Source: Candidatus Poribacteria bacterium (GTDB lineage: Bacteria; Poribacteria; WGA-4E; WGA-3G). Taken from it: DNA of 47,605 bases. Below the pieces are notes generated by a model. That model saw nothing but the letters and a program-made list of their open reading frames with translations, was not told the origin of the DNA and did not search any database. The position numbers and the translations under genes are program-made. Of the stretch, positions 13,419 through 44,493 are shown in pieces. Numbering within the stretch: position 1 is the stretch's first letter; every line of letters begins with the position of its first letter. The DNA lies in contig JAJECK010000007.1 of assembly GCA_022822085.1 (NCBI GenBank), forward strand, positions 1 to 47,605, given 5' to 3'.

Positions 13419-13476
13419 GGCGAGGTTTCCGAACCTCGCCAAAGGACCGATTTATTTTCTTAATCTTCATGAAGTT
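13419..13476. repeat. GGCGAGG-type palindrome with flanking arm
   Basis: GGCGAGGTT-TCCG-AACCTCGCC (13419-13440) is followed by AAAGGACCGA and a segment read on the reverse strand as TGAAGATTAAG...CGGTCCTTT. The same arm (GAAGATTAATTTTTTAATTCGGTCC) bounds the large element at 41584. This is therefore a truncated copy of the same dispersed family. Confidence 0.65.
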
Positions 13477-15182: not shown

Positions 15183-18100
15183 ATGTTTGCTAAAAAATAC
15201 ACAATCTTGTTTTGTATCATATCTGTTATTTGCTCAAGTCTTTTTATTCCTATGCTGAGTTTTTCACAAGATGAAGCGACTGACGAAAAAATCATTGAGC
15301 GATACAAATTGATGCTCATTCAGAAACCTAAAGAGGGGAGTACTTTTGATAGGCTCTATCAGTTTTATCTTGAGGATGCGGGTTTAGATGCAATGGTGTC
15401 TGATTATCAATCTGAAGCTCAAGCAAAACCTAACAATCCGAACATTCAACTTATCTTGGGGCATATCTACAAACGCCTCGGCAAGGATAAAGATGCACTC
15501 ACTGCGTATCAACGTGCTGTAGAGTTATCACAAAATGATTACTACGCACATTTTGCATTAGGGCAGTTGTACGTGATACTCCGTCAACATGAAGATGCCA
15601 TTAGCGAATTGACGAAAGCAGCATCGTTATCAGAACAAACACAGACTATCTCTCCCGAAGAATTAACAGATATTTACAAGACACTTGGACATGCGTATTT
15701 TAGTCGAGATATGTTAGATGAAGCGATTAAGGCGTGGGAAAAGATCTCGGCACTTGATCCTGATGATATCTTTGCACGGACTGAACTTGCTGACCTTTTC
15801 CGTGAGCAGGAACTTTATCCACAAGCCATTGCTCAATACGAAGCAATCATTAATATAAAGAAAGATGACACATACCGTAAATGCCTAAGTATGCGGGAAA
15901 TTGGTAAACTATATGAAGAATCCGGGGAATATCAAAATGCATTGAAGCAGTATGATGGAGCGTTAGACCTAACCGCACCTGGCAATTGGCTCAGAAAAGA
16001 TCTGCAACAAAGGATCATTGCTATTTATTCGGCTGATGCTAACTGGAAAGACTTAATCGTTTATTATACAGGCAAACTTGCTACAAATCCGAATGATACT
16101 GAAACACTCGGTCTACTTGCTGGAGCGTATATTGAGAATCAGCAGCTTGAGGAAGGCATTGGGACATATAAGAAAGGGTTGACGCTTGCCCCAACAGATA
16201 CGAGTCTTCGGCTTAACTTAATTGGTGCGTTTCGGGATTCGGAAAAATATGAAGATGCGGCTGCGGAATATGAAGCACTTAGTGAACAACACCCTGATGA
16301 CATAGGAATTTATCGTGAACTTGGGAAATTGTATTTGCAGCTTGAAAATGAAGTAAAGGCGAGAGAAGTTTATCAACGTATGATTGATCGTGATCCTGAG
16401 GGTGCTAACATATACATTACTCTTGCTGAGATATACGCTGGACACGAATGGCTTGAAGATGCTGTAGCTGCGTACCAAAAGGCAACCGAACTTGATCCAG
16501 ACAATCTTGATTATATTGAATATTATGGCGAATTTTATTATAGACAAGGAGATCGTAATAAAGCAATTGAAACTTGGAATCGGATGGTTGCGGCAACCAA
16601 AAACAGTGCAGAGAATTACGACCGTCTGGCGCGTCTGTTTGAAACGAAGAAGTTCTCCGATGAAGCGATTGGGGCGAGCAGAAAAGCGGTTGAACTGATG
16701 CCTGAAACTTACCGTTTCAGAGAAGCGTTAGCCAAGCGACTGATGAACGATGGGCAATATGACGAGGCACTTATAGAATACACTGAAGCGTTGAAACTTG
16801 CCCCGAATACGTTTTTTGCTGAACAGATGGACGATAAACTGATTGAACTCTATAAACGACAAGGAACGCTCCTTAAAAAGATAGAGGAAATTGAAACAGA
16901 ACTTGATAAAGCCGGTCTCGCTGATAATGACAAATTTGTACAACAAAAACGGCTTGCAAAGATGTATCTGAAGTTAGGAAATACGACCTACGCGCTGGAA
17001 ATTCTCTTGAAGGCGAAAAAACTGCAGCCCGACGATATAAATGTGAATCGTTGGACAGCGAATGTTTATATCAAACAGGGAAGACGTGATGAAGCGGTTA
17101 CAATCTACCGTCATTTAACAGAGATAGATAACGCCAATGCGCGTGAGTATTATTCTAATATCGCAAATATCCATCTGGAAGCCTTGAATTTTGAGGAAGC
17201 GACTGCGGCAGCGAAGCAAGTCATCGCGCATAGTCCGCGTAATCCGGAGGGGCATCAGTTACTTGCACAAATCGCTAAACAGTCAGGTGATTTCGATTCA
17301 TCTGCGAATAGTTTTAAGCAAGCAATTCGTTTACGTCCAGAAGCGATTGATGTCCGCAAAGAACTTGCTCAACTGTACCATGTTTCAGGTAAATTCAGAC
17401 TTGCAATTGCGCAGTATTGGCGTTGTTGGAACCTAAGCAACAGTGTTAGTGACAAACTGAGTTTCATTAATCCACTTGGTGAAGCATATTATAACTTAGG
17501 TAGGCGTTCGGAACTGGCAGAAAGACTGAAGCAGATGGTGAAATCTAATACATCTGGTATTGTCCCTGTCTTAGCACTTGCTCAGGTCTATCGGAGTGAA
17601 GGCGATCTATCAAGTGCGCGGTTCCAGCTTGCCCGGGCATTAGATCAGCAGCGTAACAATCCAGAACTTTTGTACCAACTTGTTGGAATTAGTTTAGACC
17701 TTGCCGATATTGATGAGGCGTTGAGTTACCAACAGCAGCTTGTCAAGGTAGATCCTGATCCTATACATTTACAAAAACTTGGCGAACTCTTATTTGATGT
17801 TGGGCGCGAACAAGAAGCTGTTCAGACATGGTCAAAAGTGTTGCATCAAAGGAAACATACACTTGATGCGGAAATTAGACTTGCGAAATTACTGATAAGA
17901 CACGGTTTAATGGAGGAAGCTCTCTTTGCTCTTGACAACGCAGCGGAAAAGATATCTGATTCCGATGCTCATATTGGGTTATACCGAATCGGCGCGACAT
18001 TAGTTAACATGAGCGAACCTGAAAAAGCGTTACCATACTTTCGGCGCATTATTGAGATGTCAAAGCCTGTCCTCGAACAGGGTGTGGAACAAGGTGTGGC

Positions 18101-21100
18101 AACATCTACGAAAAAAACAAAGGCTACTAATCCCAATTCATTTTATGGTCCACCGGGGATAAACACGAACAAACTTCATCTTGCGACTATTCTCTCACAT
18201 CGTGTGCAAACTCAGCAATATTCTACAAGAAATGTCACACCGTGGTTACCGAACACTTTTGAAGAGGCACAAGCCGCAGCACTTGTGCAGTTGAAGACGA
18301 TTTCAGATGATCTTGGGAAATTGGATGAGATGTTTGTTGAATTTGAAGAAAAGGGCACCACGAATCCCAAGGATGTCCACACCCTTGAACTATTAGCACA
18401 ACTCTATATCTTGACAGAAAATCAAGAAAAAACCGATGAAGTCTTAGATAAATTGATTGTTGCGTCTCCTAATAATTTGGTCTACCGAGGCATTAAGTTA
18501 AAATCGTTGGTTAATCAAGAAGAGTTCAAATACACTAATTTAATAAATTATCTTGATGAGATGGCCGGATTGTCAACAGATGGTAAAAATTGGTATCTCT
18601 TAGAATATGCCTCTATATTCATGAGTCAAGGAAAACGTGATACCGCCGACAAACTTTTGGATGAGCTTGAGGAAATGAATGTGCTTCATCTCAGTAATGG
18701 TCATAAATTGGTTGATCTTTTTGTGAGAATGGGACGGATAGAACAAGCAGAAAAGAGACTTTCAGAAATTTCTGTAAGTGCTGCTTCACAACATTCAAGC
18801 CAGTATATTCGTAACTATGAAACGATTATGAATACTTATCTGAGCAATGGAGAGACTGACAAAGCCATAGAATTCTTTTGGAAGTATATTGAAAAGACAA
18901 ATCCTAAAGTTACCAGTGGAAGGCACGTAGCAAGTTTATCTTATTCACCATACTATTCGCAAACCCAGAGATATCAGACCAATTACCCATCACCTTCATT
19001 ATATTATAGCCAGACTCGGTTAAATAGTCTGCAAAGGTTTTTTAATAAAGTATGGATCAAGGACCAACAAGAATTATTCTATACATCATTAGAGGCTAAA
19101 TACAATGGGGCAGAAGGCAGAAGTCGTATCTATCCGGCATTAGCAATCAGTTACTGTAAATGGTGGGATGGACAACGCGCTAAATCGCTTGATGTGCTTC
19201 ATCAGTTGCAAACGGAATTTCCAGATGACCTGACACTCAAAATGAACACAATATTTGTTTCAATCCAATCTGGGAAACACAATGTCGCATTAGAAGTGCT
19301 ACAGGAACTAATTCAAACGGATCCGAAGAACCTCTTTCAATATTACGATTTGACGTTACAAATTGCGACGTATTCAGGTGATTCGTCTGTAGTGCGTGAG
19401 TTGATGAAACACCTGCTAAACTCTCCGACAAGTGTGCAGCAGCTTTACGGTTTCTCTCAGAAATTGCAAGCTGCAGGGTTCACACAGTACGCTGCTGCGG
19501 TCTCACAAAAAGCGATGGATTTAGCCCTGAGAGAAAGGGATCCAGGTTTCCTAAGACAATTTAGCACTCATCTAAACGATTTGGGACGCGGACAGGATGC
19601 TGCACGTTTGGTGCAGCGTGCAGTGAAGTTGGAAAATTTGAAAGCACTATCTGGGCAAGCATTACCGGTGCGGAATACTGGCACAATGACATATACGCCA
19701 AAACAGCTTAAAGTGATACAGGACAGAGAGACGAAATTAGTCAAAATTGCAGAGCAGAATCCGAAATCATTCAAAGCTCAGTCCAATTTAGCAGCATACT
19801 ATTCACGTAGAAATCAGGTGCAGAAAGCAATAGAGACGTATCAGGCAGCACTTGAACTCCGACCGAATGATAGTACGTTACGCAATCAATTCGCAGACAT
19901 GTTACGGCGAGTCGGAGAAGTTAAGAAAGCAGTTGAGCAATACACATATTTACTAAAGAACAACATCTCCAGTTCACAATACGGTTATTACCAGTATGAA
20001 TATATCATAGAGACATTTATCCAAGCAGGTGAAATAAACAAACTTATTTCAATTGCCAAAGAAATGGTTGAGGACAGTCAAAATTATGGACGTAGGTATG
20101 AATTTGTTCAAAGAATTGCCCAACATTTCAGAAACAGTGATAATGTCAAACCCTTGATTGAGATATATGAAAAAGCAGTCGAGTCTGGGTCAGAGAATTA
20201 TTTTAATGACTTGGTTTCAGCATACATTTCTACTGGTAACCGTGATAAAGCAAAGCAACTATTGGTAGATAAACTCAAGACTGGACATGTAGAAAATCAA
20301 ATTAATGTGATACTTAGGTTATCTGAAGTAGATGATAGTTTAGTTGATTTGAACAATTTGGTAACAGAATACGAGGAGAAGTTTCCCGTTGATTCTGCTG
20401 AACCATCAATGTTATATCTGCTTGCGATCTTGAATATAGTAACAAACGATATAGAGGATTCAGATACTTATGTTGAAAAGCTGCTGCATGACATTCCTAA
20501 AAATACACGATTGCGGTGGCTCAATACTATTGCAAACACTTATCAGAAAAAATCACAGTCGGATCGCCAACTCCGTTTACTTGAGGCTGCTATTGAAAAC
20601 GTAGATCCTAATAATACGTCATATCTATCAGGTATATACGAGACACTTGGTACGATTTACACTGACAAAGGAGAAAAAGAGAAAGCCAAGAATGTCGTCC
20701 GAAAGTCGGGGCATCTCCGTCTGATGCGTAGTGGTGGTCCCCGTTATTGGGAAAAAGAATCAATTGCCCGAACTTATATGGAGCACGGTATGTATGACGA
20801 AGCAGAAGTGCTGTTGATAGAGGTTATCAATGACTTATCTGCACAATCTTATTATAGGGAACGTGCCCAAGAGCAATTAGCAACTATCAGACTTCAACGG
20901 GATGGTCCGGATGCTAACTCCGATGTGAATAACCAAATGGAAGATATGAATATTGCTTTACTCCGAACAAAAGCAGAGGAACATAGGAGAAGACGAAATA
21001 ATTACGAGGCAATAAAAGTCTATGAACAGATAGTCAAAAAAGTGCCAGACGACCTTGCCTCACGCGCAACACTTGCATCTCTTTACAACGAACAAAATCA

Positions 21101-24100
21101 ACCTGATGAATCAATAGAAATGTGGGATGCCTTGCTAAAAATTGATCCTGAGAATACTAAATATCAGGATGGACTTGTTGCCGCATACAAAAGTTCAGAT
21201 AGAATTGATGAAGCGATTCAATTGGCACAAGGATATATTCAAGAGAATCCAGATATTGGTTTATATCATTCTCGACTGGCAGATTTATATGCATCTAATG
21301 GACAAAATGATGCTGCGATTACAACCTATAAAAAGGCAATTGAACTTACCCCGAGCGATGCAAAATCGCATGAGGAATTGGCAAAGGTCTATGTGAAAAT
21401 AGGTGATGATGAAGCTGCGGAAAAGTCGTATAACGATGCCCTAAAATACGCTGCGCCTGGAAGTAATCAAGCGAAATTAAGACAGAATCTGATGAAGATA
21501 TACCAACGTCAAGGAAAGTTAGAGGAGGTATTGAAGCAAGCTGAGGAACAGGGCACACTGACATTTGATATGCAAAGAGAAAGGGCACGTATTTATCAAA
21601 ACAGTGGAAAGTTGGAAAAAGCAGCGAGTGCTTACCAGAAAGCCTTGGGAATGACAGCAGACAGATATGCACGCGGTGATATTCAACGACAATTGATTAC
21701 TATCTACTCAAATCTCGGTAAATTAGATGAATATCTAAAAGAAGCGGAGGAACAAGGGGCAATATCTTTTGAGATGCAAAAGGAGATAGCGCGGAGATAT
21801 CAGAATAATCGTGAATATGAAAAAGCAGCAAATGCATATAAGAAGGCGTTACAAATGACGACGCAGTCGCATGAGCGGCATCAACTTGACCGAGAAATGA
21901 TGAGAATGATTCGACAATCTGGGAAGATAGAACAATTTTTAAAAGAAATGGAAAAGGATGGTACGCTGTCTTCTGAGATGCAAATGGAACTTGCCAGACA
22001 CTACAGTTCACGCGGTCAATCCAAAAAAGCGATTGAAGCCTATAATAAGGCATACGATATGACAAATTCAACTGGAGACCGAGAGGAAATAACAACTCAG
22101 TTGATGCAAGAATATGTCCGTCTTGGTGATACAGACAAACCAATAGAGTTATATGAAAAACTCATTAGTAATGCCTCAGATAGACGTTCAAGTACTTCAT
22201 ATAGTGGACTTTCTGGATTCAGAATAATCTCTGACAAAGATCAGGCACGCGAATCTTTGATTCACGCCTTTAAACAGAATAGAAAAATCAGCGAACTTGA
22301 ATTGATTTTCAACACTAAATTGGAAAGCAATCCGGAAGATCCAGATATTCTTTTATTAATTGCAGAGATACACCGTTATTCAAACAAACATGAAAAAGCT
22401 GCGGAAGTCTATCAGTCTCTAACTAAGATAGAACCGAATAATCTTCAACACTACTATTATGCTGCCGCGTCTTTGTACAAAAGCGAACAGAAAGAACAAG
22501 CGAACGAACTCATCAAACAAGGAAATAGTGCGCTTTCATCAAGTTCAAATAATAAAGATGCGATGCTCTTATGTACGCTGGGATCAATTTGCTATGAAAG
22601 CAAGATGTACGAACCAGCGATTGCATTGTTCGAAGATGCAGCCAAAGTCCATGAAATATCTGGGATCAATGACAGTAATAGATGGCAAAATCAGAATATC
22701 TATGAAACACTTGGAAGAAGTTACATGGAAACCGAGCAGTATGAGAAGGCAGTTGAAGTATATCAACATTTGAAGAAAATATCGTCAAGCAGTTACACGA
22801 AAGAGAATGCAGATAAGGCAATAAAACGCGCTTATGATGAAGGGAACCTTCACGAAAAACAAATCCCAAAACATTTGGAAAAAGTCAAACAGAATCCGAA
22901 TGATGTGAACGCGAGAATTACGCTTGCAGAGAGTTATGAATCCAGTGAAAGGTATGATGAGGCTATCGCGCAGTATGAGAAACTCAGTGAATTGCAACCT
23001 AACTCTCCGAAATGGCACAAGACTATCGGGGATTTATATGGAGAGACGAACAATACAGAACGGTTACAAAAGGCAGCTGCTGCTTATGAGAAAGCAATTG
23101 CACTTGATCCGAATTCGTATGAATTCTATGACACTTTAGCAAAGTTGTATTCGGAAAATGGTGATTCTGCGAAAGCCGAAAGTGTCTTTCTGCGAGTACT
23201 GAATGTTTCCCAAAATCCTAAAGAACATGATAGGATTGTCAATGCCATTTTTGAGCTTCACGATCCAAAAACGTATGTGGAAAAACTGAAAATATTGGAA
23301 AGTCTTCAAGCAAAAACTACTCACAGCATACTTCTACATAGGTTATTAGGTGATGTCTATTTAGGTGATGGAGATACTGATAAGGCACAAATTTCATACA
23401 AGAAATGGTTAGAAAAAACTAATAATAATCATGGAAGGGAATTACATCAACTCGCTGAAAGTCTGATGGATAAAAACAAATTACCAGAAATTGCATTAGA
23501 AGCAGCCAAACAAGCAACGGACATCAACTCGGATTCAATCAATATTACCACATTAGGAAATGCCTATCTGGTTAATGAGCAATATGAAGAAGCATTTAAG
23601 CAATTTGCACTTAGTATTAATCTCAGGGATCAATCTGGAGGCTTTCGTGGTAATCAAATCGAACCTCTACTGAGACGTATTTCACATGTGAGTAAGAATA
23701 TAAAGGATAATACACAGTATCAGGAACTGATGGGTAAATTAGTTGCTTCAATCTCGACTGGTGTTGAAACTGAATTAGATACGAACTTACTATTGGCTGA
23801 GTTCTGCCGTGAACTCCAATTGACTGACAAGGCAAAGGAATTCATGCAGAAAACAGGTTTCTTCCCTGAAACTGCATGGTTAACACTCGGTCCTTTTGAT
23901 AATACCAAAGGTGTAGGATATAGTACTGCTTTCATACCTGAAGAACAGCCGCAGATTGATAAGTCTGCTGAATATGATGGTATAGCAGGGAAGATAAAAT
24001 GGGGTAAAGGTTCAGATGAGACTTTTGATGGGTTCTTTGATTTTGGCAATGATGAGAATTTCTATGCTGCTTATGCCTGGATTTCATTTACATCCCCTGA

Positions 24101-24356
24101 TGAAAGGAAAGCAGAAATTCGATTTGATAGTGATGACCAAGGCAAAGTATATTTGAATGGGAAAAAAGTATATGCACATAGAAGAACCCGTGGGGCATCC
24201 ATTGACCGTCGGACTATCCCTATAACGCTTGTTACAGGAGAAAACACGATTCTTGTCAAAGTCTGCAATGAATCTCTGCCATGGGGATTTTACTTGCGTA
24301 TTACAGATACGGATGGAAAACCTTTTGACGATTTGAAAATCGTTAATGAAGATTAA
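15183..24356 (+). CDS. Giant exported TPR protein (3057 residues) with C-terminal beta domain
   Basis: A Sec signal peptide (MFAKKYTILFCIISVICSS, then LSFSQ) is followed by several dozen TPR helix pairs from about residue 35 to 2890, with typical A..Y..AIELDP endings. Residues about 2064-2335 are four tandem 68-residue units (see 21372-22187). The last 160 residues (from AWLTLGPFDNTKGVGY, about 2896) form a separate domain with EIRFDSDDQGKVYLNGKKVY and GFYLRITDTDGKPFDDL. This resembles galactose-binding or PA14-like beta sandwiches and is shared with the 716-residue gene downstream. AAGGAG lies 8 bases before the ATG. It probably acts as an extracytoplasmic scaffold binding proteins along its superhelix. 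The partner is unknown. The reading frame is intact across 9.2 kb. Confidence 0.88.
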   Translation: MFAKKYTILFCIISVICSSLFIPMLSFSQDEATDEKIIERYKLMLIQKPKEGSTFDRLYQFYLEDAGLDAMVSDYQSEAQAKPNNPNIQLILGHIYKRLGKDKDALTAYQRAVELSQNDYYAHFALGQLYVILRQHEDAISELTKAASLSEQTQTISPEELTDIYKTLGHAYFSRDMLDEAIKAWEKISALDPDDIFARTELADLFREQELYPQAIAQYEAIINIKKDDTYRKCLSMREIGKLYEESGEYQNALKQYDGALDLTAPGNWLRKDLQQRIIAIYSADANWKDLIVYYTGKLATNPNDTETLGLLAGAYIENQQLEEGIGTYKKGLTLAPTDTSLRLNLIGAFRDSEKYEDAAAEYEALSEQHPDDIGIYRELGKLYLQLENEVKAREVYQRMIDRDPEGANIYITLAEIYAGHEWLEDAVAAYQKATELDPDNLDYIEYYGEFYYRQGDRNKAIETWNRMVAATKNSAENYDRLARLFETKKFSDEAIGASRKAVELMPETYRFREALAKRLMNDGQYDEALIEYTEALKLAPNTFFAEQMDDKLIELYKRQGTLLKKIEEIETELDKAGLADNDKFVQQKRLAKMYLKLGNTTYALEILLKAKKLQPDDINVNRWTANVYIKQGRRDEAVTIYRHLTEIDNANAREYYSNIANIHLEALNFEEATAAAKQVIAHSPRNPEGHQLLAQIAKQSGDFDSSANSFKQAIRLRPEAIDVRKELAQLYHVSGKFRLAIAQYWRCWNLSNSVSDKLSFINPLGEAYYNLGRRSELAERLKQMVKSNTSGIVPVLALAQVYRSEGDLSSARFQLARALDQQRNNPELLYQLVGISLDLADIDEALSYQQQLVKVDPDPIHLQKLGELLFDVGREQEAVQTWSKVLHQRKHTLDAEIRLAKLLIRHGLMEEALFALDNAAEKISDSDAHIGLYRIGATLVNMSEPEKALPYFRRIIEMSKPVLEQGVEQGVATSTKKTKATNPNSFYGPPGINTNKLHLATILSHRVQTQQYSTRNVTPWLPNTFEEAQAAALVQLKTISDDLGKLDEMFVEFEEKGTTNPKDVHTLELLAQLYILTENQEKTDEVLDKLIVASPNNLVYRGIKLKSLVNQEEFKYTNLINYLDEMAGLSTDGKNWYLLEYASIFMSQGKRDTADKLLDELEEMNVLHLSNGHKLVDLFVRMGRIEQAEKRLSEISVSAASQHSSQYIRNYETIMNTYLSNGETDKAIEFFWKYIEKTNPKVTSGRHVASLSYSPYYSQTQRYQTNYPSPSLYYSQTRLNSLQRFFNKVWIKDQQELFYTSLEAKYNGAEGRSRIYPALAISYCKWWDGQRAKSLDVLHQLQTEFPDDLTLKMNTIFVSIQSGKHNVALEVLQELIQTDPKNLFQYYDLTLQIATYSGDSSVVRELMKHLLNSPTSVQQLYGFSQKLQAAGFTQYAAAVSQKAMDLALRERDPGFLRQFSTHLNDLGRGQDAARLVQRAVKLENLKALSGQALPVRNTGTMTYTPKQLKVIQDRETKLVKIAEQNPKSFKAQSNLAAYYSRRNQVQKAIETYQAALELRPNDSTLRNQFADMLRRVGEVKKAVEQYTYLLKNNISSSQYGYYQYEYIIETFIQAGEINKLISIAKEMVEDSQNYGRRYEFVQRIAQHFRNSDNVKPLIEIYEKAVESGSENYFNDLVSAYISTGNRDKAKQLLVDKLKTGHVENQINVILRLSEVDDSLVDLNNLVTEYEEKFPVDSAEPSMLYLLAILNIVTNDIEDSDTYVEKLLHDIPKNTRLRWLNTIANTYQKKSQSDRQLRLLEAAIENVDPNNTSYLSGIYETLGTIYTDKGEKEKAKNVVRKSGHLRLMRSGGPRYWEKESIARTYMEHGMYDEAEVLLIEVINDLSAQSYYRERAQEQLATIRLQRDGPDANSDVNNQMEDMNIALLRTKAEEHRRRRNNYEAIKVYEQIVKKVPDDLASRATLASLYNEQNQPDESIEMWDALLKIDPENTKYQDGLVAAYKSSDRIDEAIQLAQGYIQENPDIGLYHSRLADLYASNGQNDAAITTYKKAIELTPSDAKSHEELAKVYVKIGDDEAAEKSYNDALKYAAPGSNQAKLRQNLMKIYQRQGKLEEVLKQAEEQGTLTFDMQRERARIYQNSGKLEKAASAYQKALGMTADRYARGDIQRQLITIYSNLGKLDEYLKEAEEQGAISFEMQKEIARRYQNNREYEKAANAYKKALQMTTQSHERHQLDREMMRMIRQSGKIEQFLKEMEKDGTLSSEMQMELARHYSSRGQSKKAIEAYNKAYDMTNSTGDREEITTQLMQEYVRLGDTDKPIELYEKLISNASDRRSSTSYSGLSGFRIISDKDQARESLIHAFKQNRKISELELIFNTKLESNPEDPDILLLIAEIHRYSNKHEKAAEVYQSLTKIEPNNLQHYYYAAASLYKSEQKEQANELIKQGNSALSSSSNNKDAMLLCTLGSICYESKMYEPAIALFEDAAKVHEISGINDSNRWQNQNIYETLGRSYMETEQYEKAVEVYQHLKKISSSSYTKENADKAIKRAYDEGNLHEKQIPKHLEKVKQNPNDVNARITLAESYESSERYDEAIAQYEKLSELQPNSPKWHKTIGDLYGETNNTERLQKAAAAYEKAIALDPNSYEFYDTLAKLYSENGDSAKAESVFLRVLNVSQNPKEHDRIVNAIFELHDPKTYVEKLKILESLQAKTTHSILLHRLLGDVYLGDGDTDKAQISYKKWLEKTNNNHGRELHQLAESLMDKNKLPEIALEAAKQATDINSDSINITTLGNAYLVNEQYEEAFKQFALSINLRDQSGGFRGNQIEPLLRRISHVSKNIKDNTQYQELMGKLVASISTGVETELDTNLLLAEFCRELQLTDKAKEFMQKTGFFPETAWLTLGPFDNTKGVGYSTAFIPEEQPQIDKSAEYDGIAGKIKWGKGSDETFDGFFDFGNDENFYAAYAWISFTSPDERKAEIRFDSDDQGKVYLNGKKVYAHRRTRGASIDRRTIPITLVTGENTILVKVCNESLPWGFYLRITDTDGKPFDDLKIVNED
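21372..22187 (+). repeat. Four in-frame 204-base (68-residue) repeat units
   Basis: Within the giant TPR gene, the segment ending G(T/A)(L/I)(T/S)..(M)Q recurs with its CAA codon at 21573, 21777 and 21981, exactly 204 bases apart each time. A fourth unit follows without that ending. Each unit holds two helix pairs, one of them ending AA.AY.KAL.MT. The paralogue at 27022 has only two such units, so the block expanded here. Confidence 0.75.
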
Positions 24357-37334: not shown

Positions 37335-38318
37335 ATGTCCGAACAAGTAGAACAAAAACACGCAGAATTTCGCGAGACATTTCTAAAAATACAAGAAGAG
37401 ATTTCAAAACGTATCGTTGGTCAAAAGGAGATTATTGAAGGTGTCCTGATATGCTTGATGACGGGAGGACATGCACTTTTAGAAGGTGTTCCAGGTTTGG
37501 GTAAAACGCTACTCATCAGTACACTTGAGAAAGTACTTGACCTTGAGTATCAAAGGATTCAGTTCACACCTGACCTAATGCCTGCAGACATCGTTGGAAC
37601 GACCATCGTTGCAGAGGACGAAAACAGACAGAAGTTCTTTGAATTCCAACCTGGACCCATTTTCGCTAACCTCGTTCTTGCTGACGAAATCAACCGTGCA
37701 ACCCCCAAAACACAATCCGCTCTGTTAGAAGCAATGCAAGAGAAGTCTGTCACCGTTGCAGGACAGCACCGCTCCCTTGACCTTCCTTTCTTTGTGATGG
37801 CAACCCAAAACCCGTTAGAAATGGAAGGCACATATCCTCTGCCAGAAGCACAACTTGACCGCTTCTTTTTCAAGTTAAAGGTAGAATTTCCCTCTCTTGA
37901 CGAACTTGATTTAGTTATGGAACGCACAACAAAACGTGAAATGCCGTCTGTTGAAAAGGTAAGTGATGGCAAGCAGATAAACGAACTGGAACAGATTGTG
38001 CGTGATATTCTCGTCGCAGAAGATGTACGAAGGTATGCATTGCGTCTTGTACTGGGAACTCATCCCGAAACCGATGATGCACCCGAAAAGACAAAGCAGT
38101 ATGTGCGTTACGGTTCAAGTCCTCGTGGTGCACAAGCATTGATTTTAGCAAGTAAGGTCCGTGCAATTCTGGACAGCCGGTATAACGTCGCTCGTGAAGA
38201 CATCCAAGCGGTCGCATTGCCGAGTCTACGTCATCGACTGATCCTAAGTTTTGAAGGTGAAGCGGAAGGAATTGACCCTGACGAAATCATTCTGCATCTG
38301 TTAGAAGTAATAGACTGA
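37335..38318 (+). CDS. MoxR-family AAA+ ATPase
   Basis: The protein has 327 residues. Walker A is GVPGLGKT (residues 51-58, Lys57). Walker B is LVLADE (113-118) followed by INRATPKTQSALLEAMQE, the MoxR signature. Sensor 1 lies in VMATQNPLEMEGTYPLPEAQLDRF, and sensor 2/lid in the YVRYGSSPRGAQALILASK region. MoxR ATPases act as chaperones that load cofactors or assemble complexes together with VWA proteins. The downstream DUF58 and BatA-like genes fit this. AAGGTG precedes the ATG. Cytoplasmic. Confidence 0.95.
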   Translation: MSEQVEQKHAEFRETFLKIQEEISKRIVGQKEIIEGVLICLMTGGHALLEGVPGLGKTLLISTLEKVLDLEYQRIQFTPDLMPADIVGTTIVAEDENRQKFFEFQPGPIFANLVLADEINRATPKTQSALLEAMQEKSVTVAGQHRSLDLPFFVMATQNPLEMEGTYPLPEAQLDRFFFKLKVEFPSLDELDLVMERTTKREMPSVEKVSDGKQINELEQIVRDILVAEDVRRYALRLVLGTHPETDDAPEKTKQYVRYGSSPRGAQALILASKVRAILDSRYNVAREDIQAVALPSLRHRLILSFEGEAEGIDPDEIILHLLEVID

Positions 38319-38407
38319 AAAATTAGAGTAATCTGATTGCTTAATCCTGTTCATCTCTCCTACACACAAAAAACTGTCCTAAACCCTTGACAGTACTAAG
38401 GTTTTAT

Positions 38408-39298
38408 ATGCAAAACGATACACAATCCGCATTTGACAGTGAATTCCTGAAGAAGTTGGAATATCTTTATATAGTCTCAAAAAAAATATTTTCTGGACGT
38501 ATCAAAGCAGAACGGCGCAGCACAAGACGTGGCGTGAGTGTAGAGTTTGCGGATTACCGGAACTACACACCTGGCGATGATTTCCGATATATCGATTGGA
38601 ATGCGTTTGCAAGGTTAGATGAACTTTTGCTGAAACTCTATGAGGAACGTGAAGACCTGCACATCTATTTCCTCGTAGATGTAAGTCAGTCCATGACTTA
38701 TGGGGAGTTACCAAAACTAATTTATGCAAAACGTGTGGCTGCTGCGCTTGCTTATATCGGTCTATCAAACCTTGATCGCATCGGAATCACAGCATTCAAC
38801 ACAACTGACATGAATAGGTTACCTACAGAACGTGGTAAGGCGAAAATCTTTACCGTCCTGAATTTCCTGGATCAGATCAACGGTAGTGGAGAAACGGATA
38901 TGGAACACGCATTCCAGAATTTTGTACATCAGACGAAACGACGTGGATTGGTCGTGTTGATATCCGATCTATTTGACCCCAAAGGGTTCACTGCTGGTCT
39001 GAATATGCTAAAGTTTCAGAAACATGACCTTTTCGTCGTCCATATTATTGATGAAAAGGAAGCAGAACCCACGCTTCTTGGCGATTACCACCTTGTTGAT
39101 GTTGAAACCAATCAACTCCGACCTGTCACCATCAATGAGAATCACATTAAACGTTACCACGCTCTTTTCCAAAAGTATTGTGATGACCTTGACCGATATT
39201 GTAGACAACGTGAGATTAGCCTTGTGCGGACGATGACAAAAGCACCTTTTGAAGAACTTATTCTGAGAATTTTTCGTATGGGTGGTTTTGTGTCATAA
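38408..39298 (+). CDS. DUF58 (VWA-like) protein of the MoxR operon
   Basis: The protein has 296 residues from the ATG at 38408, which has AAGG 6 bases upstream. A TTG 21 bases earlier is the only longer alternative. The DUF58 signature is complete: RRGVSVEFADYRNYTPGDDFRYIDWNAFAR, shown here as its ends RRGVSVEFADY and RYIDWNAFAR, followed by a VWA-type nucleotide-like core (IYFLVDVSQSMTYGELPK), in which DVSQS is the metal-binding DxSxS. There is no membrane segment, so it is predicted to be the soluble partner of MoxR. The gene lies 89 bases after moxR and 43 before the BatA-like gene. Confidence 0.92.
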   Translation: MQNDTQSAFDSEFLKKLEYLYIVSKKIFSGRIKAERRSTRRGVSVEFADYRNYTPGDDFRYIDWNAFARLDELLLKLYEEREDLHIYFLVDVSQSMTYGELPKLIYAKRVAAALAYIGLSNLDRIGITAFNTTDMNRLPTERGKAKIFTVLNFLDQINGSGETDMEHAFQNFVHQTKRRGLVVLISDLFDPKGFTAGLNMLKFQKHDLFVVHIIDEKEAEPTLLGDYHLVDVETNQLRPVTINENHIKRYHALFQKYCDDLDRYCRQREISLVRTMTKAPFEELILRIFRMGGFVS

Positions 39299-39341
39299 CG
39301 GATCAATCTTGATATAAAATTGTCCGTGTTAGAATAGATAG

Positions 39342-41384
39342 ATGAATTTTTTGTCACCTACCTCACTATTCCTATTTACTCTCGCCATTCCGATCATCGG
39401 GCTGTATATTCTTAAACTGCGGCGAAGACGTGAACCCGTCTCTACCTTGATGTTCTGGGAGCAACTCTTCAAAGAGAGACAAACAACATCTCTGTTTCAA
39501 AGACTAAAACATCTACTGTCACTATTGCTTCAATTGCTTTTTCTTGCCCTTTTAGTGCTTGCGATTGCACGTCCGCAATTCGCATTTATTACGAAGTCTG
39601 CCAGACAACTTATCTTGATAATTGATAACTCCGCGAGTATGAATGCTGTGTTGAAGCTTGATCCTGATAATCCATCTTTAGAAACACGTTTGGATTCCGC
39701 TAAAGAACAGGCAGGACAGTTAGTCCAAGGACTACGTTTTATAGACGAAATGACTATCGTTAGTAATCATAAACAGCCAACAATTCACACACCGTTTACG
39801 GGTCATCAGAAAACACTGAGAGAAGCGATTTTATCAATTGCTCCGACCGATATTAGAACAGACCTAAAACCAGCAGTCGATTTAGCGTACACAATCGCTG
39901 AAACAAAACCGAATCCTGAAATCATTATCATGAGCGACTTTCATGCAGTTACCGAAAAGACAATCACACAATTTCAAGAAACACAATCAGAAGGACAGGC
40001 GACTGAAGAGGAACAGGAAAGTGTGGAGAAACCTAAACTTCATCTGATTAGGATAGGTGAAGATAACGATAATGTCGGTATCACACAGTTTCGTGTACGG
40101 AAAAGCATAGTAAATGTCTTTGATTACGAAACATTGTTGACTGTTGTTAACGCTTCTGATGAAGAAAAGAGATGTAGTGTTGAACTATATTTCAATGACA
40201 GTCTCTTTGATGTGCGTCCTTACACACTTGCCCCTGGTGAGAATAAGTCAGAAATCTTTAGTAATTTTGCTTTTGAAGGTGGAGAATTGAAAGCAGTTTT
40301 AGACATCACCGATGCCTTATCATCGGATAATGTTGCGTATGCTACCTTGCCGAAACGCGAGCAAATCTCTGTTTTGTTAGTTACAGAGGAGAATCCGTTT
40401 TTAGAAAAAGTGCTTTCTGTTGATGAGAAACTCAATCTAAGTGTTATGAAACCATCGGACTATGAGGCTGCTCCAAAAACCGCACAAGTGGTCCTCTTTG
40501 ACAGATACAGTCCGACGAATATAAGTGACGGCAATTATATGTTTATCTATCCTCCGAAGTTAGAGACGGGTGCGCATGACTCTGTGTTAACTTGGGACAT
40601 CGGGGAAGCACTCGAAACACCAATCATCACGGATTGGGAACGGACACATCCAATTTTACAGCACGTTCATCTGGAGAATGTGTTAATCGGAGAGGCATAT
40701 CAGATTACGCCACCATCTACTGCACAGATTTTGGCGCGTTCGTTTGAATCTCCTGTTCTATTCATTGATGTTACGCAGAACAGAAAGGTTGTCTTTGTTG
40801 CAATTAACATCTTGGAATCGGATTTGCCGTTGCGTATTGCCTTCCCTGTTATCATCGCAAATACGATCCAATGGTTTCAACACAGCGAAGGCATACAGGA
40901 GTATCACCTGCAGACAGGAGAAGTGTTAAGATATAAGTTTGAATCGGAATATCTTACCAACACAGAGATTGAACAAGTAGAAGTTCCCGCTGGAAGGACA
41001 CAACACACCTTGACGGTTACTGGTCCACAAGATAAATCGTGGGATGTTCCTATTGAAAATGATGAGATACTGTTTGAACACACGCAACAGGCCGGATTTT
41101 ACAAGGTGACAGATTCAAACGAATCTAATGAGGAACCCGTAGATGAGCCAATTTCCGACAACGAAGAAACAGAGGAACCGAAGCAGTTGTGGGCAGTCAA
41201 CATTGCCAGCGAAACAGAATCTCATATCGGTATTGCAGATGGAATTGAAGACTTGTTAACGAATTCTGAGGTATTGGTCGGTAGTTCATTTTTTCGCTAT
41301 CCGCCTTGGATATATTTAGTTCTGTTGGCAGTCGTATTGACTGTTGTGGAATGGTTCCTATATCAACGGAGAAGAATAGAGTAA
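39342..41384 (+). CDS. BatA/VWA-domain membrane protein
   Basis: The protein has 680 residues. The N-terminal BatA-type region (MNFLSPTSLFLFTLAIPII, LKLRRRREPVSTLMFW) contains two helices (about 4-23 and 56-77). A VWA domain starts at LIIDNSASMNAV, with the DxSxS metal site at Asp95-Ser99, and runs to about 240. Beta-rich domains follow, with a glutamine amidotransferase-like segment about 345-480. A final helix (IYLVLLAVVLTVVEWFLY) anchors the C-terminus, so the middle is probably periplasmic. It is the last gene of the operon. In aerotolerance-type operons such proteins work with MoxR and DUF58. An acidic insert, SDNEETEEPK, lies near the end. Confidence 0.88.
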   Translation: MNFLSPTSLFLFTLAIPIIGLYILKLRRRREPVSTLMFWEQLFKERQTTSLFQRLKHLLSLLLQLLFLALLVLAIARPQFAFITKSARQLILIIDNSASMNAVLKLDPDNPSLETRLDSAKEQAGQLVQGLRFIDEMTIVSNHKQPTIHTPFTGHQKTLREAILSIAPTDIRTDLKPAVDLAYTIAETKPNPEIIIMSDFHAVTEKTITQFQETQSEGQATEEEQESVEKPKLHLIRIGEDNDNVGITQFRVRKSIVNVFDYETLLTVVNASDEEKRCSVELYFNDSLFDVRPYTLAPGENKSEIFSNFAFEGGELKAVLDITDALSSDNVAYATLPKREQISVLLVTEENPFLEKVLSVDEKLNLSVMKPSDYEAAPKTAQVVLFDRYSPTNISDGNYMFIYPPKLETGAHDSVLTWDIGEALETPIITDWERTHPILQHVHLENVLIGEAYQITPPSTAQILARSFESPVLFIDVTQNRKVVFVAINILESDLPLRIAFPVIIANTIQWFQHSEGIQEYHLQTGEVLRYKFESEYLTNTEIEQVEVPAGRTQHTLTVTGPQDKSWDVPIENDEILFEHTQQAGFYKVTDSNESNEEPVDEPISDNEETEEPKQLWAVNIASETESHIGIADGIEDLLTNSEVLVGSSFFRYPPWIYLVLLAVVLTVVEWFLYQRRRIE

Positions 41385-41650
41385 GTGAGATTTCGTTGAT
41401 TAAGCTGCTACTATATGCAAGCGTACTTCGCAAATAGTGCTACTATATGTTGATACATTCAGTTGTCGAATGTCTGAACGCTGAATGGGGCTAAATTAGA
41501 GAAACGCGTCAGTTCGGCAAGCAAAATTCACCTCTACACACATAAACCTGTCAGGACTTACGCATTTCCTCTTAAAAGTCCCGTTGAATGAAGATTAATT
41601 TTTTAATTCGGTCCTTTTTATCCGTCCGAGGCAGGTTCCCCTCCTCCACT

Positions 41651-41858
41651 GGCGAGGCGGGGAATGCCTCAATGGCATTCATACCGTTGATTTCTTCCTA
41701 ACCCCGTTCTCTTCCCAATGCTGCTGGCGAGGCGGGGAATGCCTCAATGTCATTCATACCGTTGATTTCTTCCTAACCTCGGCCTCTTCCCAATGCCGCT
41801 GGCGAGGCGGGGAATGCCTAAATGTCATTCATACCGTTGATTTCTTCCTAACCTCGCC
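41651..41858. repeat. Three tandem 75-base palindromic units
   Basis: Unit starts at 41651, 41726 and 41801 are exactly 75 bases apart. Each starts GGCGAGGCGGGGAATGCC, has CATTCATACCGTTGATTTC in the middle and ends TTCCTAACC(C/T)CG. The third ends CCTAACCTCGCC, which pairs with the GGCGAGG start. Units differ at a few positions (TCAATGG, TCAATGT, TAAATGT). Confidence 0.85.
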
Positions 41859-41927
41859 TATTATTAAACCCCGTTTTAACAGGATAACAATTTTTAAAAA
41901 AAGTCGAGCAGAATAGAAGTGCGTTAC

Positions 41928-42025
41928 CCTTGGGTAAAGGCGAGGTTAGGAAACCTCGCCAGCGGTAGATGATGAGCAGCGAGGGTGCCTTGGGTAAAAG
42001 CGAGGTTAGGAAACCTCGCCAGCGG
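41928..42025. repeat. Two tandem 60-base units with GGCGAGG-type hairpin
   Basis: CCTTGGGTAAA(G/A)GCGAGG followed by TTAGGAAACCTCGCCAGCGG occurs at 41928-41965 and 41988-42025, with starts 60 bases apart. The stem GCGAGGTT/AACCTCGC is a hairpin of the same core as the 75-base units. Confidence 0.8.
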
Positions 42026-42383
42026 AGGGGAAACCTGCCTCGTACGGATAAAAAATTACTGAATTAATAAATTAATCTTCATTCAGTTTGCGCACTCAGA
42101 GGCACAATTTCACAGATTGTGCTACTTGAACTTAAGAACGGCACATGGCGTGTGCGGACTACCTTTAAGCACGTATTTAAATCGGAATTATTAATGCACA
42201 CCCCTCAAATAGCCAAAATGACGACTTTTTAACCCCCTAACCCCTTATCAAGGGGAATGCGTAAGTCCTGATAGTTATTTGAGGATGCTACTGTTTTTGA
42301 GTCAATAATGTGATGTAATCGAGGGAGAAAACCCCTCCCACATGAAAAAAAGACGGAATTTTGCACTTTTTTTGTAATTTTAT

Positions 42384-43704: not shown

Positions 43705-44493
43705 ATGAGAAAGTTTTCTATTTTTCTAAATATAGTCCTAATCCTCAGTATTACCACTTTTGTATTGTCATATCGTGGTGAAGAAAACGGGAGATTAAGC
43801 AATCGTGATGCTCATCAAGTAGTTGTAGGATATTGGGCAGATGCCAGCGGGAACTTTGAACGTATATTGGGTGAAAAGATACCTTTATCTGTGCTTTATT
43901 TGGGCAAGGATAGCGACGAAGGACCTGTAAACGGACCTTTGAAAGCCCATAGTCAGGTTACGTCAGTAGTTTCCATTGATGGGCAACGCGGTCATTTTAT
44001 AGATGCATCGAGTTATGTAAAATGTGAAGGTGTTGATGAAGATTACGAAGGTCGTTTCAGTGTACGTGCTGCGGTTCATCCTGCGTGGAATCCTGGGACA
44101 ATGTCCCTTGATTGGGAAAGTGGAATACCCTTTCAAGGCGAGTTAGTCGTACAGGAGGATAATAACGATAAAAATGGAAATCCTGCTGATGGAGAAGTTA
44201 GGACCACTGCTGAAGATCCGGAAAATGAATACGATGTATTTGCCCTGGCAGCGAAATGTGATACGCATGCTTGGATCTACGGTTGCGAACCTGAGGAACC
44301 TGATAATGCTGAAAGTCCCTCTGGTGGTTGTGGTTCTGGTGGTTGTGGTTCTGGTGGTGGAGATGATGATGAACCTGATTGTCATGGGGCTCGGTCATAT
44401 GCCCCCTTTGATATGCCAGAACCGGAAGACTTGCAATACCCTGATGGGATTCCACTCCCAGCTCCAGATTATGTTCCTTTTCCTACTGCATAG
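43705..44493 (+). CDS. Secreted protein with Gly-Cys-rich tail, unrecognised
   Basis: The protein has 262 residues with a signal peptide at about 1-22 (MRKFSIFLNIVLILSITTFV). The middle is beta-like (VVVGYWADASGNFERILG, HSQVTSVVSIDGQRGHF, GTMSLDWESG). After CDTHAWIYGCEPEEP comes a tail, SGGCGSGGCGSGGGDDDEPDC, followed by HGARSYAPFDMPEPED and a Pro-rich end. The Cys/Gly/Asp tail may bind metal or form disulfides. AAGGAG lies before the ATG. It forms a two-gene unit with the upstream protein. No family is recognised. Confidence 0.65.
   Translation: MRKFSIFLNIVLILSITTFVLSYRGEENGRLSNRDAHQVVVGYWADASGNFERILGEKIPLSVLYLGKDSDEGPVNGPLKAHSQVTSVVSIDGQRGHFIDASSYVKCEGVDEDYEGRFSVRAAVHPAWNPGTMSLDWESGIPFQGELVVQEDNNDKNGNPADGEVRTTAEDPENEYDVFALAAKCDTHAWIYGCEPEEPDNAESPSGGCGSGGCGSGGGDDDEPDCHGARSYAPFDMPEPEDLQYPDGIPLPAPDYVPFPTA

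Follow-up and report, generated by a model that had tools for sequence, protein, structure and literature searches.

The repeat feature of about 0.7 kb analysed here is a nested stack of gene-less mini-repeats of known kinds, and the new point is that one of them, MITE A, targets the centres of hairpin loops. This pile of non-autonomous repeats was probably built by the REP-carrying MITE A entering hairpin loops through a structure-guided transposase supplied in trans, while a RAYT spread the palindrome R.

The window, i.e. the whole stretch of 47,605 nucleotides that was analysed, is an entire contig (C5) of a draft genome assembly (5.63 Mb, 158 contigs, 96.5% complete) of a Candidatus Poribacteria bacterium. 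Candidatus Poribacteria are sponge-type bacteria. Elsewhere in the window there is a very large ORF of 3057 aa (15183-24356) and a 15-bp tandem repeat (TCTGGTGGTTGTGGT, 44320-44358) within the ORF 43705-44493.

Structure of the nested repeats

The repeat stack begins about 165 bp past the last of a series of MoxR AAA ATPase, DUF58 and BatA/VWA-like genes (37335-41384). It contains no ORF of 90 aa or longer, and neither an Rfam family nor a plasmid match was found. The predicted folding energy of the strand was -164.5 kcal/mol, versus -89.5 +/- 6.7 kcal/mol for shuffled sequences (z -11). The following parts were distinguished:

41551-41587 (+): outer MITE D, left part, with TIR TCAGGACTTACGCA at 41551-41564; interrupted at the A insertion; matches the 120-122 bp D subtype (L051, C19:30508)
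41588-41657 (-): right half of A, inverted (ATGAAGATTAAT... to GGCGAGG); copies about 90% identical genome-wide
41649-41873 (no strand): three tandem 75-bp units, each an R palindrome whose loop holds the 36-bp hairpin insert B (AAATCAACGGTATGAATGCC...GGCATTCCCCG)
41860-41938 (no strand): spacer K between opposite-facing R palindromes, REP-dimer-like; K is also present in L003, L005 and L008
41939-41960 (+): R palindrome GGCGAGGTTAGGAAACCTCGCC (REP)
41999-42020 (+): another R palindrome, with 1 mismatch; R-containing blocks spaced by 60 bp
42014-42082 (+): right half of A, direct (...TTAATCTTCAT); full A copies, 113-117 bp long, are numerous
42083-42204 (no strand): right half of an E-type hairpin (CAGTTTGCGC) and repeat M, the latter common to C122:34447 and C99; boundaries approximate
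42205-42271 (+): outer MITE D, right part, with TIR at 42258-42271 and the CCCCTTATCAAGGGG hairpin; left boundary approximate

All the layers of inverted repeats described in the sequence-only reading were recovered, exactly or within a few bases, and the arrangement is indeed an element within an element, with MITE D outside and a rearranged copy of MITE A inside. The outer inverted pair is perfect (TCAGGACTTACGCA at 41551-41564 on the plus strand and 42258-42271 on the minus strand); these are the only 2 matches in the 47.6-kb window, against a chance expectation of 0.25. The inner pair, which had been given as 70 bases long, has contiguous arms of about 72 bp (41585-41657 and 42014-42085) with a complementarity of 89-93% by segment. 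The arms pair as claimed, but they do not form an intact element, being two inverted right halves of A. Similarly, the three 75-base units are tandem copies (identity 100/93/80%) but not simple palindromes, each having the 36-bp hairpin insert in the loop of R; the same R+B form occurs inside A copies of 150-152 bp. The two 60-base units correspond to 38-bp blocks at 41928 and 41988, spaced by 60 bp and 97% identical. Both the 75- and the 60-bp tandem units look like local duplications. The GGCGAGG/CCTCGCC cores, which had been called constant, are not fully so: the 75-mers hold CCCCG and CCTCGG variants.

Since the feature holds no ORF, it is not an insertion sequence, in line with the reading, which had found it unexplained by common insertion sequences. 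Its further proposal of a self-amplifying repeat is unsupported, because there is no coding capacity and the layers, every one an ordinary non-autonomous repeat (MITE or REP), need proteins in trans. In a genome-wide search for each layer the A/R unit was found at about 100 BLAST places, the outer end at 43 and the core palindrome at 277.

The left flank of the A copy in the window is the internal hairpin of D, while its right flank is the hairpin of family E with M; thus, this copy is a hybrid. The D MITE would have taken an A insertion in its internal hairpin, and afterwards recombination among A and REP copies, together with local duplication of R+B, may have led to the three 75-bp and two 60-bp units. 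The origin of the window's A flanks in different hairpin families, together with the clustering of R palindromes at contig ends (10 of 58 within 500 bp, expected 1.3), means that the composite of two A right halves around tandem R units could be due to recombination or to misassembly through A copies. An assembly chimera via multi-copy repeats is a serious candidate for the window copy, though somewhat unlikely: similar R+B and K blocks are found at L002, L003, L005 and L008, and the pair of outer D ends is intact. It would concern the window copy alone; the general behaviour of A and the loop-targeting result presented below are independent of it.

Properties of the MITEs

MITE A has the TIRs ATGAAGATTAA/TTAATCTTCAT and no coding capacity; it is 113-117 bp long, or about 150 bp when R holds B. 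A stricter TIR identity was applied in scanning for its ends, since a loose scan yielded mostly chance pairs, and 75 canonical-size copies were obtained in 2.18 Mb of the host genome. MITE D is 112-136 bp long, with CAGGACTTACGCA ends and internal CCCCTT...AAGGGG hairpins, and has a target duplication of constant length, 3 bp in 20 of 24 copies. In L123:1600-2931 (OX639992) a MITE C (TATAGTAAAACC ends) lies within A elements, which is another direction of nesting.

An autonomous A element or transposase was looked for between A ends up to 3.5 kb apart in the same 2.18 Mb, and none was found. One 2.9-kb TIR pair with a matching F hairpin, on contig C107, was considered as such an element and rejected, as it consists of two separate A copies; the interval holds a host gene, which we take from its translation to encode a WD40-repeat-like protein.

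Insertion of A at the centre of hairpin loops

The surroundings of A were examined by deleting the element from each copy and checking the flanks for pairing with a stem of at least 5. Such a stem was present in 62 of 97 A copies, while at random sites the frequency was 2.0-2.2%. When only canonical-size copies were considered, 57 of 75 lay centrally in an inverted repeat, and in 47 of these the unpaired bases numbered exactly 2+2. The same loop test gave 0/24 for MITE D and 0/23 for MITE C in the host genome. In other Poribacteria 31 of 36 and 17 of 22 A copies were found in hairpins, often of different sequence.

The target hairpins belong to the families CACAAACT, AGTCCC/CGTCCC, GAATGCC and CCCCCTT, and apparently unique hairpins outside these families are also filled by A (for example C22:11830, C25:113704 and C21:20205). 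When flanks were swapped between A copies, 21% still paired at a stem of at least 5. Since this value arises from the recurrence of the hairpin families, the random sites and the C and D elements are the relevant controls. Judged from the genome sequences, A occupies the middle of hairpins that were there before it and that have many different sequences, as a rule with two loop bases left on each side. Its choice of target appears to be set by shape and not by sequence, the element landing almost only in hairpin-loop centres.

About 24% of the canonical A copies are without flanking stems, and many of these have half-hairpins of two families. Many stem-less copies, the one in the window among them, have left and right flanks from differing hairpin families, which suggests either that recombination between A copies has rearranged the genome or that the assembly was joined at these places. 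Examples of mixed-family flanks are C117:8508, C102:46780, C99:48271 and C119:23806.

The footprint at the target site

The 2+2 footprint is exact in 51 of the 62 stem-flanked copies. In 47 of these 51 the inner flanking bases (left -1 and right +1) are identical, where 15.5 would be expected, and the same was found at 10 of 10 such sites in the relatives. Where hairpins with the same stems stand empty, the loop is 3 (GTA, TAC, GAT/ATC) or 5 bases (TAAAT/ATTTA) long, while the filled sites keep four loop bases, two per side. Therefore one base is duplicated in 3-base loops and one is lost from 5-base loops, the latter cases being few (about 5 copies). A has no target duplication of constant length, and its footprint changes with the length of the loop; the length of the duplication would equal 4 minus the loop length.

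Orthologous empty sites were searched at five loci, and only at C25 was the alignment clean across the junction. There the relative G001 is without A and one base shorter at the junction; the identity is 70% and the hairpin is not conserved in that genome. For C11, the orthologous site does not preserve the hairpin region. An in-frame insertion of A at C25 was considered and rejected, as no ORF of 150 codons or more spans the site.

The R palindrome and the RAYT gene

R (GGCGAGGTTAGGAAACCTCGCC) is present in 277 near-exact copies in the 5.6 Mb genome, while the reversed-pattern control gave 0. An intact RAYT (REP-associated tyrosine transposase) gene was found on contig C138 (159-aa ORF, L093:1435-1914, plus strand; NF047646, 112.6 bits at a cut-off of 80). 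R-type palindromes lie on both sides of it, about eight upstream and several downstream, and several of them are GTAG-headed. In RAYT/REP units the gene is bordered by its REPs (PMC2817692), an organisation like that of C138. The gene order and the family match point clearly to R being the REP of the host genome's RAYT gene, and this locus is the likely source unit of R. A GTAG head is seen at the RAYT locus (GGTAGGCGGGG...) as well as in the A cores of the relatives, and is absent from most dispersed R copies. Two IS200-like genes, L091 and L092, both scored under the RAYT cut-off, L092 being barely over the IS200 cut-off. A lone R-type palindrome (GGCGAGGTTCGGAAACCTCGCC) occurs in the window at 13419-13440 on the minus strand.

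The placement of R was classified in 2.18 Mb (n=125): whole A elements held 65 of the copies and half-A 21, MITE C accounted for 10 and K blocks for 6, and the other 23 lay outside these. In relatives, D-type MITEs also have R at their centre (L114, L118, L171). The presence of R inside A, C and D means that one palindrome is common to three MITEs with unrelated ends. Blocks of opposite-facing R copies with a spacer (R-K-R) were found in the window and in at least 3 other loci.

Scanning about 85,000 species genomes gave at least 91 stretches with R, and among the matches listed all were from Candidatus Poribacteria. Among 84 genomes of the phylum R is confined to one family, apart from some stray copies in three genomes that belong to another family, and within the genus its copy number varies from 0 to 181. 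RAYT genes were found in 72 of the 84 genomes, and the link between RAYT and R is not strict across the phylum: RAYT without R occurs, and in G004 (81% complete) R is present and no RAYT was detected.

The core of A is exchangeable. Congeners with few or no R copies keep the ends of A and carry another, usually GTAG-tagged palindrome (L314, L322, L325, L326, L327, L328). In one of them, G010 (L325), the flanks of an A copy form the palindrome GCGCGCTT...AAGCGCGC, which is of the type that this copy has as its core.

Possible mechanisms of A insertion

In the explanation that we favour, RAYT would have placed R into A, C and D, and the REP-carrying MITEs would in turn insert in palindrome loops, those of REPs among them. 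A putative transposase may act in trans on the ends of A; it would recognise an extruded cruciform or hairpin and cleave both strands at a distance of about 2 nt from the stem. Such an enzyme could possess a structural ruler, so that an extruded hairpin of any sequence is cut two bases past the stem and the loop size sets the length of the duplication; we hold this part tentatively, at slightly below an even chance. The cutting model rests on the footprints, as neither an autonomous A element nor its transposase was found.

The placement of A might instead reflect survivorship, if A inserted near-randomly and the insertions in hairpins persisted since genes and regulation stay unharmed. Intergenic hairpins are abundant in the host genome, and none of the 62 stem-flanked copies is wholly within an ORF of at least 150 codons. 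Selection of this kind, however, would give neither the exact loop centre nor the fixed 2+2 footprint with its equal flanking base, and it is at odds with the 0/47 result for C and D, which are MITEs of the same genome, so that we consider it very unlikely. That the flanking inverted repeats are simply the outer part of a longer TIR of A, without any target choice, is barely credible: the flanks often come from a few families (CACAAACT, AGTCCC, GAATGCC, CCCCCTT), but there are at least four families besides the apparently unique flanks, other species differ, and the same hairpins occur A-free with short loops in 15-26 copies per loop type.

Two known kinds of enzyme could also be involved. RAYT itself might move A as single-stranded DNA, using the internal REP as a handle, into hairpin loops of the lagging strand. 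RAYT genes are widespread, and a GTAG-type palindrome forms the A core in most relatives without R; nevertheless, the precise symmetric TIRs of A are kept from one species to the next, whereas the core palindrome differs, the gain or loss of bases at the target misfits a simple strand transfer, and the IS200/IS605 relatives are without TIRs or larger duplications (PMC2817692). We regard this as improbable. An IS1272/IS1182-type transposase mobilising A in trans would account for structure-based targeting of inverted repeats, and joining at the level of the loop has been drawn as a possible pathway (PMC5678879). This is quite unlikely here, since IS1272 replaces the stem-loop while A keeps the stems on both sides, and PF13751 was found neither in the host genome nor in 56 of 57 genomes of the family, a model outside which some members may fall. 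Taken together, a structure-recognising transposase in trans fits better than the survivorship, longer-TIR or simple RAYT models.

Comparison with known systems

The nearest mechanistic precedent is IS1272 (IS1182 family), as it selects inverted repeats by their structure (PMC5678879). It shares with A a target of variable sequence and the lack of a conventional duplication, but it removes the target stem-loop, whereas A enters the loop with a 2+2 footprint and the stem is kept. A target rule of the structural-ruler type is not described for the transposons compared here. Insertion sequences that target REPs (IS1397, ISKpn1, ISPpu9/10, IS621; PMC1525189) also use palindromic repeats as insertion sites; they have been described as choosing particular REP sequences, in contrast to A, which uses many unrelated hairpins, some of them apparently unique.

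R resembles the REPs of REP/RAYT systems (GTAG REPs, BIMEs; PMC2817692, PMC3733652) in being a short, abundant, imperfect palindrome with a RAYT gene between R arrays, and the paired opposite R copies with a spacer look BIME-like. It differs in that most R copies are carried by MITEs (of 125 copies, A in whole or half form holds 86 and C holds 10) and do not stand alone, and in that the GTAG tag, clear at the RAYT locus and in the relatives, is eroded in the dispersed copies.

Parts of the picture were already known, since REPs within palindromes (PMC3733652) and a MITE holding a GTAG REP (PMC10969869) have been noted earlier. The latter, QMITE2 of Coxiella, is a gene-less TIR element with a GTAG palindrome, as is A; here, however, one REP is found in three unrelated MITE types, and the palindrome of A varies by species. 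The palindromes within palindromes of A. variabilis (GTAG-15), T. roseum (GTAG-23) and H. neapolitanus (CGTC-1) were mentioned in passing (PMC3733652), with empty host palindromes in T. roseum only and with no loop rule given. No published description of the loop-centre rule, of the sharing of R by three MITEs or of the core swapping was found in a search that covered few of the subscription journals.

If confirmed, the behaviour of A would make it a native, sequence-independent reporter of hairpins and cruciforms in living bacterial cells, and its transposase an integration enzyme that reads DNA shape. It would also explain the spread and nesting of REPs, as REPs travel inside MITEs and MITEs insert into REP loops. 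With its two loop bases per side, the site rule gives precise, testable predictions.

The mitochondrial double-hairpin and palindromic elements (PMC2670323, PMC2800124) are likewise proliferating gene-less hairpins; going by the descriptions of them that we compared, they differ in being organellar and without a REP/RAYT link.
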